Positions 14,156 to 45,035 of a stretch of DNA of 46,417 nt are shown here, one piece after another. Source of the stretch: a virus. Positions within the stretch are counted from its first letter, which is position 1; the number at the start of each line of letters is the position of its first letter. The stretch lies in IMG/VR virus record IMGVR_UViG_3300036760_000304, positions 1 to 46,417 of that record. One strand, 5' to 3'. The position numbers were made by a program, and so were the translations under genes. The notes beneath the pieces are model-generated. The model did no database searches and had not been told where the DNA came from. It saw only the letters and a program-made list of their open reading frames with translations.

Positions 14156-17100
14156 GTGGCAGACGAAACACTGTCTCTCGTTCTCCGCGTGTTGGGCGTG
14201 CAACAGGCGGCGCGGGATACGGAACAAGCCGCCGTCTCGATCGAGGGGCTGGGAGCCGCGGCTCTTGCGCAACAGGCCAGCATCGCGGGTCTGGATGCGA
14301 GCGTCCTCAAGCTCGGGACTGACCTCAAGCGGCTCGACGCCCCGGTCAAGGTTCCGTCCATCGTCATCCCGCCGGTCACGCTGCCGCCGATTGTCGTGCC
14401 GCCGGTTATCGTCGCGCCGACCGTGGATGCCGCAGGCTTCGAGGCTGCAAGGACAAGGATTCTCGGCGAACTCGGCCTTGATGTCTCCGTCCCGGTAACG
14501 CCGGCCGTTGATGTGGCCGGGCTGGAGGCCACCAAGGCAAGGATTCTCGGCGAACTCGGCCTTGATGTCTCCGTCCCGGTAACGCCGGCCGTTGATGTGG
14601 CCGGGCTGGAGGCCACCAAGGCAAGGATTCTCGGCGAACTCGGCCTTGGGCCGGTGGTCATCCCGGTCGCGCCGATCACGATCCCCCCCATCCCGGCGAT
14701 TCACGTCCCGCCCGTCGTCATCCCGCCGATCAAGGTGCCCCCGATTGTGGTGCCGCCACTGGCCGTCCAGCAGGCCGGTGCGCTCAAGTTGAGCGTGAGC
14801 CCGGTCGTCGACCAGGCGGCGCTCGACGCGGCACGGGCGAAGATCAAGTTCCTGGGTGCCGCCGTCCCACCGATCTTCATCCCGACCAAGCTCGACCCGA
14901 CCGCCGAGGCGCAGCTCAAGAGGCTCGGGGCGCAGGCCGCTGAGGTGAAGCTGCTGGCCGACGCCACGAGCGCCGCAGTCGCCAAGATCGGCAGCGGGCC
15001 GGTCGGGACTCAGAACGTCACGGCGCTACGGAACCAGATCGCAGCGCTCGAGGCGGCGGCCGAACCGACGCGCCTGCGGGGCCAGCTCAAGGCGTTGCAG
15101 GCCGAGCTCGGCGGTGTCGAGAGGGCTGCCGCTGGCATCTCCGGCGGGCAGCTCAAGGGGCTCTTCGGCGCGCTCGAGGGCGGCGCCGGGTCGCTCATCG
15201 GCAAGCTCGCGAGCCTGGGGTTCGTGGCCGGCGGTGTCGGGCTTGCCGTGGGCGCGCTGGTCCTGCCCTTCAAGCACATGGTGGACGAGGCCTCCGCCTC
15301 CGAGGATGCGATTCGCCGGTTCGACGTGGCGCTCGGGTCTCTCGGCCAGTTCTCGACCAAAGCCTCGGCCGATTTCCAGGCCTTCGCCTCGGCGCTGCAG
15401 GCGACGACGACGCAGTCGGACGAGGCGATTCTGGCGTCAGGCGCACTCCTCGCCCAGGTCGGTAGGCTGGGCGGCGCCGAGTTGAAGCGTGCCGTGCAGG
15501 GCGCCGTCGAATTGTCGGCCGTGCTGGGCGTGGACCTGCAGACCTCCACTCTTCAGCTCACCAAGGCCGCCGAGGGCAACGTCGAATCGCTACAACGGCT
15601 GGGCATCTCGATCGACGACAGCATCCCGAAGGGCGAGCGGCTGGCCGCAGTCCTGGCCAAGGTCGAGGCCAACCTCGGCGGATCGGCGGCGGCCCAGGCC
15701 GATACGCTGACCGGCGCCGTGGCGCGGCTCAAGAACCAGTGGTCTGACATGGCTGAGACGCTCGGCAAGCCGCTTATCGTGCCGCTCGCCGGCCTGTTTC
15801 AGGCGATCAACGCCTTCCTGCTGTTCAAGAACATCGCGGGCGGAGCGACTTCGGATGCGCGCCAGCAGGTCGATAAGCTCGCGGCCGACATGATCCGCCT
15901 CGGCGAATCGGGCCGCCCGCTTGCACGGCTCGGAGCGGATCTCAAGACCATTGAGCGGCTTCGCCTCCCGACGATCGAGCTGGCGTTCAAGAAGGGGAAT
16001 GCTGAGGAGATCCTGTCCGTCCTCGAAGCGATCCGCTCGAAGCGGCTGGAGGTTCAGGCCGAGCAGGTATTCCCAGCCATCGACACGGGCCCCCTCGATA
16101 GGCTGCTCGCCCAGGGCGAGAAGGCGCTCCGTGTCAGGGTCGAGTTCGAGAAGGGCACGATCGACGAGCAGATCAAGAGCCTGGAGACAGCGCTCCGACC
16201 CAGGGTCCTGCCGATCGCCTTCGAGTCCGACCTGAAGACGCTTGACGGCATTCTTCGGGGGATCGAGTCGCGCCGGGCCATCATTCCGGTCAGCGCCAAC
16301 GTTGAGGAGTTGCGCCGACAGGTCGATGCCGAGATCGCCCGCGGAGGGCTTGCGATTCATCTCCCCGTGCTGGCCGACCTGAAGGCCGACATCCCGCACG
16401 ATCTTGCCAAAACCCGGGAGCTGGCCTTTACGCTCCGCGCCACCGTCACGACCCAGGGACCACTGATCCCGACCGACCAGCTCGACAAGGAAGCCACCCA
16501 GGCCGCGGACATCTTCAAACAGCTCGCAAATGATACCTCGCAGGCAGGCGCGGTAGCTCGCGATGTCGTCGCCGGCATCTTGACCGAACTCACGAAGCTC
16601 CGTGGCAAGCGCTCCATCCTGGAGTTCGAGGCCCCCGCCCTCGGCCCGCTCCAGGATGCCATCGACAAGGTCGTGCTCCTACGCGCTGAGCTGGACCACA
16701 AGCCGCCGCCTCTTCTCCTCCACGCCGATGCCACGGACGTAACCCGCGCGGTCGCGCTCCTGGCCTCTGGATTCGGCACGCTCGTCTCGGGTGGCAAGGC
16801 TTCTGCAGAACAGTTGAGGGGTCAGTTCGACACGATCTCGGGCGCCATCGACGCGGCCGAGAAGGCGGTGCCGCAGCTCACGGGCCAGATGGAGGCGCTC
16901 CGGGCGAGTCTCGCCAAGCAGGCCGGCATCACGATGCCGGTGCGCTTAGACCTCGAAGCCGCCAAGCGCGACGGGCAGGCGCTCGCCCAGCTCGCGGTGA
17001 CGCTGTTTCAGGACATCGGCAAGAACCCCGTCGAGCTACTGACCTTCAAGGACCAGGCCGCGGCGGTCAAGGATGCGGCGGCCGGCGCCGCGCTCCTGCA

Positions 17101-28100: not shown

Positions 28101-28772
28101 GCAACCCAGGGCCTCGGGTTCTGTGAGAAGCAGGTCTCGGCCACGGGCTACGAGTGGCGCTACTTCGTGGACTGTCCGCGCCCTGACCTGGAAGCCCCCG
28201 AGCGCTACTACCGGGCCGGAGCCAAGCTCTTCGAGGTGCTGGACCTCGCCCCGGACCAGGGCTCGTTCCGGGTCATCCCGCAGCCCCTCGACGAGCTGGC
28301 CTCACAGTTTCAGCTCAACTACGGCTGGCACCCGCCGACCCGGAAGTACGCCTACAAGAAGTTCGTCTCGGCGACGGCGGATAACCTCGAATCCCTTGGC
28401 GCGAACTATCGCGCGGCTTGCGCTCAGACCGAGACCCGCTACGGCATCCGCCGCAAGTTCTCGGTCGACGCCCCCTGGGTCTGGAGCCACAAGGTGGCGG
28501 ACCAGCTCTGCAAGTGGTACTGCAATCTAAGGCGGGACAGGCGGCTGACGGTCGAGTTCCTAACCTACTTGCCGTACTGCGACTTGCAGCCGGGGCACGT
28601 GATTCGGTTCGCGGATTCCATGGCGACTTTGGTAAAGTATCACGGGCTGGACGGGTCGTCGGCCTGGAGCGGGCACTACTTCAACGTGCTCTCGGCGACC
28701 ATCGTCAAGGGCCCCGATTCCCCGCTCATGGTCCGTGTGGTGGCGCAGGAGGTGTACTCCGTGCCTGCATGA
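25200..28772 (+). CDS. tail tip / baseplate hub protein, 1190 aa
   Basis: Starts at ATG 25200, four bases after the preceding stop and without an obvious ribosome site, so it is probably coupled. N-terminal residues 16-128 form a beta sandwich (IEIRLDAYKDETGG, LSWDGGTSWTSAK, PEWRVDYVAPRL) matching the C-terminal domain of the tube paralogue at 11385. Residues about 224-286 (GGSGVDGVALFDG to YTLTRDVYYTTVTV) match its inserted module. The rest is a large globular region and a C-terminal part (RKFSVDAPWVWSHKVADQL, LQPGHVIRFADS) like the hub domains of siphovirus tip proteins. Size and place before the lysis genes support a tip role. Confidence 0.7.
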   Translation: MAYASITSADLAEQLYGFDHAALPSSLDVDGIEIRLDAYKDETGGSGVLKLRVRLSWDGGTSWTSAKTTGPITSAIATYTLGGATDTWGHAWTRAQLQSPVFRIEVMSKGTSIIDNPEWRVDYVAPRLYFTNTTSLTLDWSERVQVVETDNFEWMEPLLWSEHVSVTDSGSGLADGLPRVQFSGDVIDEIQSTPASFQSASSQSNTPHGIGAFFLFSGLGVGIGGSGVDGVALFDGLSGHDPAGATRSGGTYTLTRDVYYTTVTVTAAATIILGPYHLYYSISFSNAGGSIPGISRTLAVAESALVEPGAIFQQGLVELGDIIVEGAPAVEIQSHEATIIIRNTALAAGSTVDSITQYLRDCYVIGQQVYIYIYAKEGTGWLSRLAFEGVVVGFETTPETVEFRCQDMKKDLIELPVLEVGPGAMNYGVDEGKLPDASFGLVVPIAIGRFDATAVKDWGSTGIFDPSNGLASILPHLLGVKVPCAPLTLAADRYLRRSGSAHAQTMRQALLVVGDRNTPTIQLSRPLNGLRYPTSAGQFQDTTPGSQWRIYYESLFSWNSELDRAQVFVSDQSVGYDATEKLFAGCGSWVEQEGDPTGPTYPLAKADAFYVNRTNPKFVTETGLWPGSLAAIALAPERQAEILGSLYSGHAVGTTAGVLDVEECYTGDPETYARIPVGQTLSVEFSRDAPRLGDVFAMRACVVLHESTSPELHAEMRFAKYSYPVGNSEPAMPLGVAICRPDINFVAGTTAFDLKLVGSKFGSIKVIDPRFPWPGNHWHDWRFVQDAYDPTTGTGQVTEQPWTLTLWALSAEARVIHCWVEVIYKPRLAGAVIGSALGPANEIPWHKRQQLPGGGPRNRRIAPQPEDPQNLDRLEVFASCHATALDDAVGKYTGVAGAIVESPTDSILFLLDKYVADYVARATGTNFGSFERARDQLNLYVGGGAEKWRLSILQDEKTTWGALRAQIATQGLGFCEKQVSATGYEWRYFVDCPRPDLEAPERYYRAGAKLFEVLDLAPDQGSFRVIPQPLDELASQFQLNYGWHPPTRKYAYKKFVSATADNLESLGANYRAACAQTETRYGIRRKFSVDAPWVWSHKVADQLCKWYCNLRRDRRLTVEFLTYLPYCDLQPGHVIRFADSMATLVKYHGLDGSSAWSGHYFNVLSATIVKGPDSPLMVRVVAQEVYSVPA

Positions 28773-30453: not shown

Positions 30454-30813
30454 ATGAAGAAGCGCCCACCCAAGATCCAGCTCGAGGCCTGGCGGAAGCT
30501 CGCCGGGCTGACGCAGGTGGAGCTTGCCCGGGCGGCGAAGACTTCCAGGAACACGGTAGGCCGCATCGAGACCGAGCCTGACTACAACCCGACCTTCGCG
30601 ACGATTCGCCGCCTTGCGGTTGCTGTCGGGGCGCTCGAGGCGCTGGACCTTTGGGAGATGCCGCCGGGGACGCTGGTAAAGCGGGCGGAGTACTACGGAC
30701 CGGCGCTGAGCATCGCGGAAGGCGCTGGCGTGGTTCTGGATCCATACGAAAAGACCCTGGTGGCCATGAGACGGGCTGCGAGGGCCGCGAACCTGGAGAA
30801 GGAGCCGAAGTGA
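30454..30813 (+). CDS. XRE/Cro-type helix-turn-helix regulator
   Basis: 119 aa from ATG 30454. Residues about 8-60 are a Cro/C1-type HTH: WRKLAGLTQVELARAAKTS, then RNTVGRIE and a third helix. The C-terminal half has no peptidase signature, so it is not a LexA-like cleavable repressor. It lies at the start of the early genes behind its own promoter and probably represses or times transcription. The 3' end shares a 22-base segment with the end of the next gene. Confidence 0.82.
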   Translation: MKKRPPKIQLEAWRKLAGLTQVELARAAKTSRNTVGRIETEPDYNPTFATIRRLAVAVGALEALDLWEMPPGTLVKRAEYYGPALSIAEGAGVVLDPYEKTLVAMRRAARAANLEKEPK

Positions 30814-31327: not shown

Positions 31328-32251
31328 ATGCGAACCGCTCTGCTCGAAACCTGCGAACCCGTCTGCTCCGCCGACGACCGTGAGGCCTGGCTCCGTGCCC
31401 GGCGCGGCGGCATCGGGGCGAGCGACGTCCCTGCGATCCTGGGCCTCGACCGCTACCGCGGCCCACTCCAGGTCTGGATGGAGAAGCTCGGCAAGGACTT
31501 CGAGGACGTGGCCGGCGAGGCCGCCGACTGGGGCCTGCGTCTCGAGCCCGTCGTCATCGCCGCCTACGCCGAGCGCAGCGGCCGGCAGGCCGAACGCTCG
31601 CGGATCCTCTACCGCTCCAAGGAGCACTGCTGGTCGCTCGCGACCCCCGACGGCTGGACCTGGGAAGACGGCTCTGCTCCCTGGCTCCTTCAAGCCAAGA
31701 CGACCTCCGCCTTCAGGGAGGCCGACTGGGCCGACGGCGTACCGCCCAAGACCTATGCGCAGGTCCAGGCCGAGATGCTGTGCCTCGGCTCCGAGCGCGA
31801 CACGGTCGCCTGTCTCATCGGTGGCCAGCGGCTCGTCTGGGCCGACGTGGAGCGCGACGAGCGGCTGATCTCCGAGATCATCGGCCGCTGTGGGGAGTTC
31901 TGGGGCTACGTCGAGACCGAGACGGTGCCGCCCGATGCATTGGGCGCGGGTGCGGCGAAGGCTCTCGGCTCGCTCTTCCCGAAGAGCAGCGACCGGCAGG
32001 TGAGGCTCGCGAACAGCTTCGAGGACAAGGCGTATCGGCTCCTGGACCTCAAGCGGCAGCGCGAGACCCTGGGCGGCGAGATCGAGGCCGTCGAGAACGA
32101 GGTCAAGGCCGCGATGGGCGATGCGGCCGAGGCGCTGCTCCCCGACGGCTCGCGGTTCACCTGGAAGAACAAGACGATCTCGGAGCACGTCCGCAAGGCG
32201 GTCACCTTCCGCGAGTTCCGGTTCTGGCCGGGTAAGGCGGTGTCGCGATGA
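31328..32251 (+). CDS. YqaJ-type (lambda exonuclease family) recombination nuclease
   Basis: 307 aa from ATG 31328, with CTGGAG upstream. Family marks: RARRGGIGASDVPAILG at 23-39, RLEP with Glu73, ATPDGW with Asp108, and YAQVQAEM at 143-150. In place of the usual acidic residue of the Asp, Glu-x-Lys triad it has LLQAKT (Gln122, Lys124). The enzyme degrades one strand of duplex ends to load the RecT-type protein encoded next. The C-terminal 60 residues are a coiled-coil (LLDLKRQRETLGGEIEAVEN). Stop overlaps the next ATG. Confidence 0.88.
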   Translation: MRTALLETCEPVCSADDREAWLRARRGGIGASDVPAILGLDRYRGPLQVWMEKLGKDFEDVAGEAADWGLRLEPVVIAAYAERSGRQAERSRILYRSKEHCWSLATPDGWTWEDGSAPWLLQAKTTSAFREADWADGVPPKTYAQVQAEMLCLGSERDTVACLIGGQRLVWADVERDERLISEIIGRCGEFWGYVETETVPPDALGAGAAKALGSLFPKSSDRQVRLANSFEDKAYRLLDLKRQRETLGGEIEAVENEVKAAMGDAAEALLPDGSRFTWKNKTISEHVRKAVTFREFRFWPGKAVSR

Positions 32252-33135
32252 CCCGCGTTAACACGGACGCCACGGGCCGCATCCAGCCCGCGAGCCAGAA
32301 GATCGAGACGCTGCCCGACGTGAACGGCGTCCTGGCCCGTCTCGGCCCTGCGATCGAGTCGTCCCTGCCCCGGCACCTGAATCCCGAGCGCATGGGGCGG
32401 CTCTTCCTGACGGCCGTCCGCCAGAACCCCAAGCTCTTGCAGTTGGAAGGGCTCTCGGATGAGGCGCGCCAGCACGTGACGCGGTCCTTCGCCGGCTGCG
32501 TCGTGTCGCTCTGCCAGATCGGGCTCGAGCCGAACACGCCGCTCGGCCACGCCTTCCTGATCCCGCGCAAGGACGGGAGGGCGAGCGCGAAGGAGAAGCG
32601 GGACGTCTACGTCGCGACGATGCTGATCGGCTATCCCGGCATGGTGGAGCTTGCGTGGCGGGCCGGCATCGACATCTCGGCCGAGGTGGTTCGACTGGGC
32701 GACGACTTCGACTACTGCTATGGGCTCGACCAGTTCTTGCGCCACAAGCCGTCGATGGAGCTGGGCCGCGAAGAGCAGCCGATGACGTTCGCGTATGCGA
32801 TCGCCCGGGCTCAGGACCGGCCTCCGAAGTTCAAGGTGATGAGCGCCGAGCAGATCGAGATGCGCAGAGCCGTGTCCGCCGCTCCGAACGGCATCGGCTG
32901 GGGCGACAACACGGAGGCGATGTACCGCAAGACGCCGGTGCGGGCGATCTGGCCGTTCATCGCGAAGAACCCCGAGATGGCGTTGGCGGCGAGGGTCGAG
33001 GAAATGGGGGAACGCGGGGAGTCGGCTGCACAGCTCCCCGAAGTGGGCGCCGCGTTGCGGAAGGTCGGGCTCGAGGGTCCACTGGAGAGCCACGAGCCCG
33101 GCCCCCGCATCGTCGACGCGGAGGAGGCGCCATGA
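32248..33135 (+). CDS. recT: RecT-family single-strand annealing protein
   Basis: 295 aa from ATG 32248. Family features: an N-terminal helical region, SFAGCVVSLCQIGLEPNTPLGHAF, MLIGYPGMVELAWRAG, and a YCYGLDQFLRHKP stretch. C-terminal part is acidic and variable. It binds single strands made by the exonuclease upstream and anneals them, supporting phage recombination and perhaps circularisation or concatemer formation. The pair is in one overlapping operon. Confidence 0.88.
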   Translation: MTRVNTDATGRIQPASQKIETLPDVNGVLARLGPAIESSLPRHLNPERMGRLFLTAVRQNPKLLQLEGLSDEARQHVTRSFAGCVVSLCQIGLEPNTPLGHAFLIPRKDGRASAKEKRDVYVATMLIGYPGMVELAWRAGIDISAEVVRLGDDFDYCYGLDQFLRHKPSMELGREEQPMTFAYAIARAQDRPPKFKVMSAEQIEMRRAVSAAPNGIGWGDNTEAMYRKTPVRAIWPFIAKNPEMALAARVEEMGERGESAAQLPEVGAALRKVGLEGPLESHEPGPRIVDAEEAP

Positions 33136-36326: not shown

Positions 36327-37616
36327 GTGGTGGGGAAGGCTGCGGGTGGCGACTACTTCCTCTCCCGCTGGATGGGGACCCTCGGAACCGAGGCCACGTG
36401 CCTCGTGCTGGCGCTACGTCAGCTTGCAGACGAGCAGGGGATCATCCATGCCTCGCAGGCCGAGATCGCGGCGCTGACCGGTCTCTCTGAGCGAACGGTG
36501 CGGCGCTGGCTCGGCACCGCTGGCGTTGCGCGTTTCAGTGTCGAGGACGCGAGACGCCACGAGCTGCTGCATCGCCACTTCATCGCCGCCAAGTCGAGGC
36601 GCTACGCACCGCAGGCGCGCGGCGGCGCAAGTCGCATCGCGGACGAGATCCGCGTCGCACTCGACAACCCGACGCACCCCGGAGACATCCATACCGGCGA
36701 GATTCGCCGCAATGGAAACCGCGAGTGCAGTCAACTGGTTACGCAAGATGAGGCCGATGATGAGGCGGTCGTAACTGCGAGAAACGCCATTTCAGCCCTC
36801 TATACCGGCGAGGCTCGCCGCAATGGGGCCGAGAGAATCCCGGACGGCGCTGCCACCGAGTTCTATACCGGCGAGATTCGCCGCAATGGACCGCCCGTTA
36901 AGAGTCAACGAGTTGCGCAGATCGTGGCGCTGGAGCAACCGGAAGAACAGCCGTCAGAGGTCCATACCGGCGAAGCTCTCCGCAATGGCCATACCGGCGA
37001 GCCTCGCCGCGCTCAGAGTCCGGATCCGGATCTTCTCCGTTCCGTCTCCGAATCCGACTCCGGAAGGCATTTCAAAACACCGTTGTCCGGATCCGATCCG
37101 AAGAGCAGGCCCCATGCCGGAACCGGATCAACGTTTTTGAAAAGAGCTGGAACGGGCACGGACCTGATCTACGACCCGCGCCCGAAGCCCCCGACGCCAG
37201 TCGCTGATTCTGCCTCGAAGCAGGGGATGCTCTGGCGCGATCCGCGAGTCACCCGCCTCTCACAGAGGCAGATCGACGCCGCCAAGCTCTACGCCGACGA
37301 GATCGGCTGCTGGCTCGACGAGAAGAGCGGCAAGGAGCCCGCGGGGCTGCACTCGTACCGCAGGCTGCATCTCGCCGCGATCTTCTTCCTGGGAGCCAAG
37401 TACACGCGGGAGGCGCAGATGGCCGTGGACGATGACCTCGCCAACGCAAGGGCGGGCCGGCGGGCACCGATCGGCAACCCGTCGAGGTACTTCTGGGGCG
37501 TCTGCCGAGGGAAGGCCAAGGAGTACGGGATTGATCTCAAGGCGGACGACGGGCAGGCCGGTGTACGGGGTGGCCGGCGCCCGTCGGACCGCGCGGCGCT
37601 CGAGGGGGCGGGATGA
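36327..37616 (+). CDS. O-like replication initiator with internal origin repeats
   Basis: 429 aa from GTG 36327 (GTGGTG). Residues about 10-75 form an N-terminal winged-helix (TCLVLALRQLADEQG, ASQAEIAALTGLSERTVRRW) as in lambda-O-type and DnaD-like initiators. The middle, about 120-240, is linker-like and holds five copies of [HY]TGE-x-RRNG, encoded by 25-base DNA repeats. The C-terminal part (about 300-420) is a helical domain (LSQRQIDAAKLYADEIGCW, LHLAAIFFLGAKYT) that could contact a helicase. No helicase or loader gene was recognised. Binding the repeats would start replication, inferred from the lambda plan. Confidence 0.72.
   Translation: MVGKAAGGDYFLSRWMGTLGTEATCLVLALRQLADEQGIIHASQAEIAALTGLSERTVRRWLGTAGVARFSVEDARRHELLHRHFIAAKSRRYAPQARGGASRIADEIRVALDNPTHPGDIHTGEIRRNGNRECSQLVTQDEADDEAVVTARNAISALYTGEARRNGAERIPDGAATEFYTGEIRRNGPPVKSQRVAQIVALEQPEEQPSEVHTGEALRNGHTGEPRRAQSPDPDLLRSVSESDSGRHFKTPLSGSDPKSRPHAGTGSTFLKRAGTGTDLIYDPRPKPPTPVADSASKQGMLWRDPRVTRLSQRQIDAAKLYADEIGCWLDEKSGKEPAGLHSYRRLHLAAIFFLGAKYTREAQMAVDDDLANARAGRRAPIGNPSRYFWGVCRGKAKEYGIDLKADDGQAGVRGGRRPSDRAALEGAG
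36691..37015 (+). repeat. five iterons of 25 bases, putative replication origin
   Basis: Copies of ATACCGGCGAGATTCGCCGC plus AATGG start at 36691, 36802, 36865, 36964 and 36991. The first and third are identical; the second differs in the centre, the fourth in the right half, the fifth at its end. Each has a short internal dyad, GGCGA and TCGCC. Spacings are 111, 63, 99 and 27 bases. The repeats lie in the coding sequence of the replication protein, as lambda's O gene does. A relatively A/T-rich run (acgtttttgaaaag, about 37130-37145) follows. Confidence 0.7.
37018..37150 (+). other. stretch after the iterons: TCCGGATCCG repeats and A/T-rich run
   Basis: TCCGGATCCG-type elements recur near 37018 and 37085 with related TCCG words between, followed by the A/T-rich run near 37130-37145. 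In lambda-like origins such a run next to iterons is the melting site. Assignment is by analogy. Confidence 0.35.
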
Positions 37617-37885: not shown

Positions 37886-38311
37886 ATGAAGCCACGGCTG
37901 CTCGAGAAGCGCGATCGAGCGCAGGCTGAGGCCGTCTTTAAGGTCCTTGCCGCTGACGACTTCATGCTGTTGTCGAGTCGCAACAATGGCGAGTTCGAGC
38001 GAGTGGTCTGCGTGACTCATGCCACGGGGCCGTTGGAGAATCTTCTGAAGAAGTACCGGGCCTCGATGGCTCTTGCGCTTGCGAGGATGAGGAAGGTGCC
38101 AGCACCTGAATGCACCGACCGATATTGGGCGAGCGCCCACCTGGACGACGCCATCGCATTCGCCCTCGTTGTCTATACCGTTGGGCCGGACGGTGGCCTC
38201 TGTCGCAGGACCTATTCCCTGTGTGAGGGCGAAGCGCAGCAGCGTGACTTTGCCAGGGCGTTGCGCGACGAGGCCGACCGACTGGAACGTGGAGCAGGGA
38301 GATCTGAATGA
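37886..38311 (+). CDS. hypothetical protein, 141 aa
   Basis: ATG 37886 with AAGGTGAAG upstream. N-terminal basic helix, then strands and a helix (FERVVCVTHATGPLENLL, DDAIAFALVVYTVG) and a charged end. No family recognised. Stop overlaps the small terminase start. Confidence 0.62.
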   Translation: MKPRLLEKRDRAQAEAVFKVLAADDFMLLSSRNNGEFERVVCVTHATGPLENLLKKYRASMALALARMRKVPAPECTDRYWASAHLDDAIAFALVVYTVGPDGGLCRRTYSLCEGEAQQRDFARALRDEADRLERGAGRSE

Positions 38312-38928
38312 CGCCCAAGCGCCCCAAGAAGCCCGCCCTGACGCCACTGGGAGCCGCGATCATGCGGTCGAATATCAAGGTGGCCGCGAAGATGCGCCGG
38401 GAAGCGGAGGAGTCGAAGCCCGCCAAGCCCCGGAGCGTTCCGGCCGGTTCTGGAGATTCCGCCCTGGACGGCCTGCGCACCGCCCTCGTCGCTACCGGCG
38501 ACCTGCCGACCCGCCAGCGCCTCGTCCTCGCGGCGTGGGCCTCGGCACCGCCCGGCGAGAAGGTAGCCGAGTTCGCGCGTCGGGCCGGCATCGCGGAGTC
38601 GACCTGGTACGCCTGGCGAACCGACCCCGACTTCAGCGCCGAGCTCGAAAAGATCATCCGCCACCGCTGCCGCCTCAACCTGGAGTTCTTCGCCGAGCGG
38701 ATTGCCGAGGTGGACGCCGCGGTCTATCGGGGCGCCTTGGATCCCGAGAACACTGCGGCGGCCACTCTCGTCTACAAGCGCCTCGGCATCCTCCGCGAGC
38801 AGGTGGATCTCACGACGGAGAGGAAGGCGGAGGTGGAGCCGACGATCGAGGAACTCGAAGCACGCTTGGCGCAGCTCGCGAACGTGCTCGAAGCGGGCAC
38901 CAAGACCGAGGAGGAAAAGGGTCAATGA
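38308..38928 (+). CDS. terminase small subunit
   Basis: 206 aa from ATG 38308. Basic N-terminal 50 residues, then a homeodomain-like HTH (VAEFARRAGIAESTWYAWRT with DPDFSAELEKI) of the type found in small terminases, then an oligomerisation helix pair (LEARLAQLANVLEAG). It would recognise the packaging site and load the large subunit. Unusually, the large subunit gene is 3.7 kb downstream, with about a dozen small genes between. Confidence 0.75.
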   Translation: MTPKRPKKPALTPLGAAIMRSNIKVAAKMRREAEESKPAKPRSVPAGSGDSALDGLRTALVATGDLPTRQRLVLAAWASAPPGEKVAEFARRAGIAESTWYAWRTDPDFSAELEKIIRHRCRLNLEFFAERIAEVDAAVYRGALDPENTAAATLVYKRLGILREQVDLTTERKAEVEPTIEELEARLAQLANVLEAGTKTEEEKGQ

Positions 38929-39800
38929 CCGAAACGAAGTTCTACAAGGTCCTGGTCGACGGCAAGAGCGCACACGGCGGCACGATGGAATGGCCGCTGC
39001 CGAACGGCAAGCCGGGTGCGTGGGTCGAGGTCGATGGCCCGCTCGCGATGTGCGAGCGTGGGATTCACCTCACCTCGTCGCCATTCTCCTGGTACAAGCG
39101 CGGCTGCGCGATCTACGAAACCGAGCACGAGGGCCAGCACGGCGAAGTGAACGAGAACAAGATCTGCGTGCGTCGCGCGCGGCTCATGCGGCAAGTCGAG
39201 TTCCCAAAGCCGTGGCAGCGAGTCGAGACATTCCTCGACACGATCCCAGGCATCCAGTGGTTAAAGCCGGACGGTGAGCCGGAGGAAGCGTGGAGTCTGC
39301 ATCTTGCGCCAGCTTTGGCTGCGGCTTGGGATGCGGCTCGGGCTGCGGCTTGGGATGCGGCTCGGGCTGCGGCTCGGGCTGCGGCTTGGGATGCGGCTTG
39401 GGCTGCGGCTTGGGATGTGGCTCGGGCTGCGGCTTGGGATGCGGCTCGGGCTGCGGCTGGGGCTGCGGCTCGGGATGTGGCTCGGGCTGCGGCTTGGGAT
39501 GCGGCTTGGGATGCGGCTTGGGGTGCGGCTCGGGCTGCGGCTCGGGCTGCGGCTGGGGATGCGGCTCGGGGTGCGGCTCGGGCTGCGGCTGGGGATGCGG
39601 CTCGGGCTGCGGCTGGGGATGCGGCTCGGGCTGCGGCTGGGGATGCGGAACTCATGGCCATCGTTGAGCTCTGCCGCGACACCGACCTCGATCCGAAGCA
39701 CATCGCACACGCCGAGGCGCGGTGGCGGGTGTGGACCAAAGGCTATGGGCTCTACTGCGACGCGAACGGGAAGCTGTTCGTCTGTGGGGTGCAGACGTGA
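38925..39800 (+). CDS. protein with N-terminal conserved domain and long Ala-Trp-Asp/Arg repeat
   Basis: 291 aa from ATG 38925. N-terminal 110 residues form a domain (FYKVLVDGKSAHGGTMEWPL, LAMCERGIHLTS) known to me from other phages ahead of alanine-rich repeats (DUF7666-like, from memory). Residues 132-242 are a run of four-residue units such as AAAW, DAAR, DAAW. The last ~45 residues (VELCRDTDLDPKHIAHAEAR) are ordinary. The repeat could form a long helix with a Trp/Asp/Arg stripe. Function unknown. Confidence 0.75.
   Translation: MTETKFYKVLVDGKSAHGGTMEWPLPNGKPGAWVEVDGPLAMCERGIHLTSSPFSWYKRGCAIYETEHEGQHGEVNENKICVRRARLMRQVEFPKPWQRVETFLDTIPGIQWLKPDGEPEEAWSLHLAPALAAAWDAARAAAWDAARAAARAAAWDAAWAAAWDVARAAAWDAARAAAGAAARDVARAAAWDAAWDAAWGAARAAARAAAGDAARGAARAAAGDAARAAAGDAARAAAGDAELMAIVELCRDTDLDPKHIAHAEARWRVWTKGYGLYCDANGKLFVCGVQT
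39318..39650 (+). repeat. short-period coding repeat (GCGGCT TGGGAT type)
   Basis: About 330 bases of interlaced GCGGCTTGGGATGCGGCTCG-like units, period 12 with variants, all in frame. The codons alternate between GCG GCT, TGG/CGG/GGG and GAT/GCT. Unit number probably varies by slippage. Confidence 0.9.
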
Positions 39801-44332: not shown

Positions 44333-44548
44333 ATGGTGGATCATCTCACGACGCGCTGCACCAAGTGTGGATCTACGGACGTGGTGATCCAGTATCTGCT
44401 CGGACGGAAGGACCCGAAGGGCATCAATGTGAAGTGCGAGACCTGCGATCTGCCCGGCGAGCACTTCCGTGTCCGGTGCGACACCTGTGGCTACCGCGAG
44501 CACCGGCAAAACGTCGGCACCATCCGCGTCACGAAGGGCACCAAGTGA
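44333..44548 (+). CDS. zinc-ribbon protein, 71 aa
   Basis: ATG 44333 with GGGGAGG upstream. Three CxxC units: CTKCGS, CETCDL and CDTCGY, enough for a ribbon plus a free pair. Ends with KGTK. Stop overlaps the next start. Confidence 0.68.
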   Translation: MVDHLTTRCTKCGSTDVVIQYLLGRKDPKGINVKCETCDLPGEHFRVRCDTCGYREHRQNVGTIRVTKGTK

Positions 44549-44673
44549 TGCTGGCCTGGCTGGACACGCCGCTGGCCCAAGTTACGGTCGGGCAGGTGGG
44601 GCTCTTCGCGATCGGCTTCGCGGGTGGATGGTTCCTTGCCGAAGCGCTGAAGTCACTCTGGAGACGCCGATGA
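44548..44673 (+). CDS. single-pass membrane peptide, 41 aa
   Basis: ATG 44548 shares its A with the previous TGA. One membrane helix (VGQVGLFAIGFAGGWFLAEA) and a basic tail ending SLWRRR. Stop overlaps the nuclease start. Function unknown. Confidence 0.6.
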   Translation: MLAWLDTPLAQVTVGQVGLFAIGFAGGWFLAEALKSLWRRR

Positions 44674-45035
44674 TCCCGCCCGTCTGCAACGTCGCCCCAG
44701 TCCGCTCCTTCGAGGCGGAGTACATCCGCACCGTGGACGGCGACACCCACGAGCTGCGGGTGGACCTCGGCTTCCGCGTGGCGCTCACGGTGACGACTCG
44801 GCTGCGCGGCGTGAACTGCCCGGAACTCTCTACCACCGAAGGAGTCGAGGCTTTGCGCTGGGTGCAGGCGAGGGTCCTGCCGACGACGATGGTCACCTTC
44901 ACGGCCCACGGGCGAGACAAGTACGGCCGCTGGGTCGGCTACATCCTCTACGGCGGTGCTTCGCCGTCCACGGGCACCGACCTGGGGATGGCGCTGGTCA
45001 GTGCGGGGATGGCAGTGCCGGTCAATCCGAGTTAG
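44670..45035 (+). CDS. staphylococcal nuclease-fold (thermonuclease-like) protein
   Basis: 121 aa from ATG 44670. Family motifs: IRTVDGDTHELRVDLG (Asp23, Asp25), RLRGVNCPE (Arg46, Glu52) and RDKYGRWVGYI (Arg87), in line with catalytic Asp, Arg, Glu and Arg of the fold. Slightly short at the C-terminus. No signal peptide, so it would act in the cytoplasm, for example on host DNA or RNA. Confidence 0.8.
   Translation: MIPPVCNVAPVRSFEAEYIRTVDGDTHELRVDLGFRVALTVTTRLRGVNCPELSTTEGVEALRWVQARVLPTTMVTFTAHGRDKYGRWVGYILYGGASPSTGTDLGMALVSAGMAVPVNPS

Follow-up and report, generated by a model that had tools for sequence, protein, structure and literature searches.

The O-Like Gene and Its Neighborhood

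The stretch of DNA analyzed here, referred to as the window, covers an IMG/VR virus record in full; it is 46,417 bases long and has a G+C content of 65.5%. It carries an O-like gene whose product is probably a replication initiator. The features of this gene are as follows, with the basis of each assignment in parentheses.

36327–37616, + strand: O-like gene, 429 amino acids, GTG start; probable replication initiator (open reading frame, HTH_36 match, weak PHROG match, and gene position)
36381–36512, + strand: N-terminal helix-turn-helix domain, residues 19–62 (Pfam HTH_36 match)
37218–37541, + strand: C-terminal domain, helical, about 105 residues (low-confidence helices in the full-length model)

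The N-terminal domain matches HTH_36 (PF13730) at 28.0 bits, above the curated cut-off of 25, and its structure model, which is of low confidence (pLDDT 60–77, about 60 overall), displays a winged-helix-like order of elements. The full-length model has a mean pLDDT of 38 and is useless as a structure; in this low-confidence model, the middle third of the protein, the linker, is without predicted regular structure. The best PHROG match is to a replication initiation protein and is weak (E = 0.021). A Foldseek search with the weak N-terminal model returned nothing at E ≤ 0.001, and no relatives of the protein were found in 50,697 phages, in 72,556 plasmids, or in the IMG/VR viral contigs. Searched separately, the C-terminal domain had no relatives in viral contigs and gave only matches with E ≥ 4 in phages. 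The terminase, RecE, and RecT of the record likewise found no relatives in IMG/VR.

The 14 families listed for the protein at E ≤ 1 do not include the lambda O family, Phage_rep_O (PF04492); lambda O itself matches PF04492 at 5.7e-36. The protein can therefore not be filed as a member of the lambda O family, a result that does not weaken the proposal that it functions in the manner of lambda O.

The gene is preceded by recE (31328–32251) and recT (32248–33135) and followed by the gene for the terminase small subunit (38308–38928). Phage initiator genes are commonly found between recE/recT and the terminase genes. Among the open reading frames scanned, none matched a helicase or loader family, and neither DnaB_C nor IstB_IS21 gave a match in six-frame searches; the record may possibly contain a loader gene that was not recognized. 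An O–P gene pair is accordingly not supported.

Several other features of the record were noted. A repressor-like HTH_3 gene lies at 30481–30624 on the + strand; a tyrosine integrase was sought in the record and none was found. Just upstream of the O-like gene, the intergenic segment 36136–36281 can fold as one hairpin of ~145 nt, closed by CGAGAGGCGGGGG and CCCTCGCCTCTCG; the segment 36130–36310 folds at −78 kcal/mol (z = −2.0), and neither Rfam (above the gathering score) nor blastn against phages gives a match for the hairpin. A 12-base tandem repeat, GGCTGCGGCTCG, is present in about 28 copies at 39317–39648, where it overlaps an open reading frame with a Yae1_N-like match, and an 84-base tandem repeat (2.4 copies, 99% identity) is located at 14448–14648 within a 1582-residue open reading frame, probably the tape measure gene. 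A staphylococcal-nuclease-like (SNase) gene follows the terminase large subunit at 44469–45035.

Five Dyad Repeats within the Gene

Within the O-like gene, an imperfect dyad of 27 bp, CCATACCGGCGA-NNN-TCGCCGCAATGG, is repeated five times in direct orientation, always on the + strand. Each unit is laid out as 12+3+12, that is, two 12-base arms around a 3-nt center. The copies, designated here as putative iterons, are as follows.

36689–36715, + strand: iteron 1, 27-bp dyad; arm match 10/12
36800–36826, + strand: iteron 2; arm match 9/12
36863–36889, + strand: iteron 3; arm match 9/12
36962–36988, + strand: iteron 4; arm match 9/12, with one position of the right inner arm altered
36989–37015, + strand: iteron 5, adjoining iteron 4; arm match 7/12, with the inner six pairs intact and most of the outer right arm lost

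The start-to-start distances between successive copies are 111, 63, 99, and 27 bp, corresponding to 10.6, 6.0, 9.4, and 2.6 helical turns. With a weight matrix built from the five copies, no sixth copy was found in the whole 46.4-kb record: the five score 33–44 bits, the best other site in the window scores 14 bits, and five random Markov sequences reach at most 18 bits. Single dyads of the 12+3+12 form with an arm match of 10/12 occur at five sites in the window and are thus not rare; it is the fivefold repetition that carries the claim. Searches of sequence collections with DNA patterns led to a tail-region gene in IMG/VR and an arginase-like gene in GTDB, both judged to be chance matches after the loci were read, and a distant blastn search with the array gave short chance matches only.

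The preliminary description had placed five copies of a 25-base element inside the O-like gene, and the repeat is indeed present in five copies, all on one strand and confined to this one gene of the record. The internal dyad is also confirmed, and the unit is better described by 27 bp (12+3+12) than by 25. All five copies are read in the same frame, for which the chance is about 1 in 81; this is a point that the preliminary description had not stressed and one in which the array differs from that of lambda. The encoded peptides of copies 1–5 are HTGEIRRNG, YTGEARRNG, YTGEIRRNG, HTGEALRNG, and HTGEPRRAQ, such that the earlier consensus [HY]TGE-x-RRNG fits copies 1–3 and is departed from in copies 4 and 5.

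Constraint on the Repeats as DNA

Comparison of the copies with one another shows that the repeats are constrained as DNA more than as peptide. Of the third-codon-base comparisons, 76 of 80 are identical, against 37 ± 6 expected from the peptides; in a simulation from the peptides, with codon usage as in this phage, none of 50,000 runs reached this count. Synonymous differences between copies are rarer than nonsynonymous ones (pS = 0.067, pN = 0.178), and both these values and the third-base figures are small numbers from one gene of one genome. The earlier observation that conservation of the DNA exceeds what a linker would lead one to expect is borne out by these comparisons.

In copies 1–5, the fifth codon is ATT, GCT, ATT, GCT, and CCT, so that the residue varies among I, A, and P and the third base remains T, although each of these T-ending codons is a minority choice in this phage (13% for Ile, 10% for Ala, and 8% for Pro). 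The right arm begins with this constant T. The codons CAT, TAT, and AAT, which are uncommon in the phage (21–29%), encode H, Y, and N wherever these residues stand at the corresponding positions of a copy.

The stretches between copies are dissimilar, with a weak likeness only after copies 1 and 3 (p = 0.007, in one of ten comparisons). In this possibly homologous flank, there are 4.0 synonymous changes over 6.5 sites and 5.0 nonsynonymous changes over 20.5 sites. Because the intercopy stretches are dissimilar and synonymous change in the flank of copies 1 and 3 is high, recent duplication is unlikely to be the whole cause of the repetition.

The Mildly A/T-Richer Flank and GC Skew

A candidate unwinding region follows the last copy.

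37017–37160, + strand: mildly A/T-richer flank, candidate unwinding region; 43% A+T, weak

These 144 bases have an A+T content of 43%, compared to a mean of 34.5% for the window, which places them in the top 1.9% of segments of equal size. The least stable 40–50-nt piece of the flank is, however, matched by 10–20% of segments. The A/T-rich run after the repeats that was described earlier is therefore borne out only in part, by mean composition and not by local stability, and as an element of an origin it is suggestive only.

Cumulative GC skew has its minimum at 28475 (about 28.5 kb), at about the point where the structural genes give way to the recombination/replication region. No turn is observed at 36.9 kb. 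GC skew is uninformative here because the cumulative skew of lambda itself, in both its minimum and its maximum, misses the lambda origin.

A Probable Origin within the Presumed Initiator Gene and Its Alternatives

The analysis establishes the repeats with their dyad symmetry and restriction to one gene, the constraint at the DNA level, the helix-turn-helix domain, and the gene position. The best reading, which we consider probable, is that the dyads are iterons to which the initiator binds and that they make up an origin located in the gene of that initiator, according to the plan of lambda. In this mechanism, gene 36327–37616 would encode the phage replication initiator, and its N-terminal helix-turn-helix domain would bind the five 27-bp dyads as a dimer. 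The dyads would lie in the part of the initiator's own gene that encodes the linker between its two domains, and we infer that the protein-bound cluster is the replication origin. The initiator would open nearby DNA, probably the A/T-richer flank to the right, and the C-terminal domain would recruit the replicative helicase, which would have to be that of the host because none was found in the record.

A lambda plan was proposed earlier, and its agreement with the present data is partial. Repeated dyad sites are found within the coding sequence of the presumed initiator, a helix-turn-helix protein at an initiator position, and within this one gene the sites are constrained as DNA rather than peptide (third-base test, pS < pN). 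The compact array with a spacing of about two helical turns is not found (111, 63, 99, and 27 bp), nor is a PF04492 match, a strong A/T element, or, among the open reading frames scanned and in the six-frame DnaB_C and IstB_IS21 searches, a downstream helicase or loader gene. The main reason for caution is the spacing, which is wide, out of helical phase, and ill suited to a compact O-some. The single common frame, which a pure DNA site does not need, also weighs against an origin, as do the weak A/T element, the missing helicase and loader, the weak likeness of the protein to known initiators, and the absence of a GC-skew turn at 36.9 kb, although the skew extremes of lambda miss its origin as well.

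Some of these points are accommodated if the O-like protein or another regulator binds the dyads for control of its own expression or for self-titration, with the origin located elsewhere. Dyads bound by helix-turn-helix proteins are the usual form of operators, control by roadblock or looping tolerates wide and unphased spacing, and the weakness of the A/T-rich element is in keeping with such a role. Operators normally overlap promoters, however, and these sites lie 360–690 bp inside the gene, whereas neither the intergenic segment that precedes it nor the surroundings of the HTH_3 gene (30.5 kb) contain one; we regard regulation in place of an origin function as rather unlikely. The common frame and the unstructured linker (low-confidence model) could also be explained if TGE-x-RRNG were a short linear motif of a disordered linker, for example one contacting the helicase or DNA, and the DNA repeat had arisen by recent duplication, of which the flanks perhaps common to copies 1 and 3 would be a remnant. 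This explanation is quite improbable, since the amino acids are less conserved than the third bases, codon 5 exchanges I, A, and P yet holds a rare third base, and the dissimilarity of the remaining linker stretches indicates that duplication was not recent. The strict common frame raises the question of whether the encoded peptide is used alongside the DNA site. In such a dual code, widely spaced 27-bp initiator sites would be kept in register with the reading frame as the origin of a new lineage without a dedicated loader, and the encoded TGE-x-RRNG peptides would also work in the initiator linker, for example by contacting the helicase or neighboring DNA; we consider it distinctly unlikely.

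The dyads could in principle act as mRNA hairpins in translation, decay, or antitermination, and copies 1 and 3 do fold well as RNA relative to shuffled sequences (z = −4.0 and −2.4). Copy 2 (z = −1.2) and the stretch of copies 4 and 5 (z = −0.5) fold no better than shuffles, and an Rfam search gave no match. If a dimer reads the site as duplex, a variable center without compensation is expected; an RNA hairpin predicts the opposite. The 3-nt centers of copies 1–5 are GAT, GGC, GAT, AGC, and GCC, the arms are constant, no compensatory pair changes are seen in the stems among the five copies, and copy 4 breaks one inner pair. This pattern is the one expected of protein recognition of a dyad in duplex DNA and not of an RNA stem, which disfavors the RNA reading and makes it very improbable. 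A short palindromic unit read in frame within a linker is also reminiscent of selfish elements that insert in frame, such as the Rickettsia palindromic elements. The repeats are restricted to one gene of the record, though, and among 2.9 million viral contigs the core pattern occurs as a single copy only, in an unrelated tail-region gene; among 84,980 genomes, the fuller pattern occurs only in one arginase-like gene. Derivation from such a selfish element is highly doubtful.

If the dyads do form an origin within the initiator gene, a phage without a close relative in the collections searched would have a defined origin, and the lambda arrangement would be seen to include an unrelated initiator of the HTH_36 type, whose array is much looser.

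Comparison with Known Systems

A close parallel in overall plan is the lambda origin with its O protein, in which dyad iterons are situated in the initiator gene between the helix-turn-helix and C-terminal domains and are followed by an A/T-richer flank (PMC7466680). In lambdoid phages, the single iteron is an inverted repeat and O functions in dimeric form; six iterons are present in Stx phages (PMC7466680). With the iteron figures of lambda computed in the same analysis as those of this phage, lambda has four 18-bp iterons spaced at 20, 24, and 23 bp, whereas this phage has five 27-bp dyads spaced at 111, 63, 99, and 27 bp, and this wide, unphased spacing is the main difference between the two. 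In addition, the lambda iterons are in frames 0, 2, 2, and 1, compared to the single frame of all copies here, and the lambda flank is 80% A+T over 40 bp, compared to 43% in this phage. Similar to the present array, the origins of the Stx phages P27 and 933W contain more than four iterons, and the extra iterons lengthen the O linker; those iterons are, however, of the lambda type, and the extra two are described as adding only 13 residues (PMC7466680).

Initiators of other families share parts of the arrangement. The RepA_N initiators of pSK41, pTZ2162, and PLE (RepA) bind semipalindromic direct repeats through a dimer of the N-terminal domain (PMC7145576), but the PLE iterons are noncoding and have a poly-A center, and the protein of this phage has no RepA_N match. 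A study of mycobacterial prophages proposed, with no repeats located, that the origin may lie within repA itself (PMC7157519). The rep genes of TP901-1 and of the Thermus phage Tsatsa were examined and contain no comparable repeat array.

In one respect, Staphylococcus phage 80alpha comes closer to this phage. Its initiator gp20 has a weak HTH_36-like N terminus, and the gp20 gene contains, in an annotated internal origin, 30-base dyad repeats that are in frame and read as a repeated peptide. A common frame is thus not unique to the present phage. The 80alpha repeats differ in that there are two copies, 30 bp apart and of another sequence, accompanied by A/T-rich 15-bp repeats, and 80alpha has a C-terminal Phg_2220_C domain and an adjacent DnaC-like loader gene, neither of which was found in this phage. 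The general plan of the locus is known, and the sequence, spacing, and in-frame layout of its repeats together make it a novel version.
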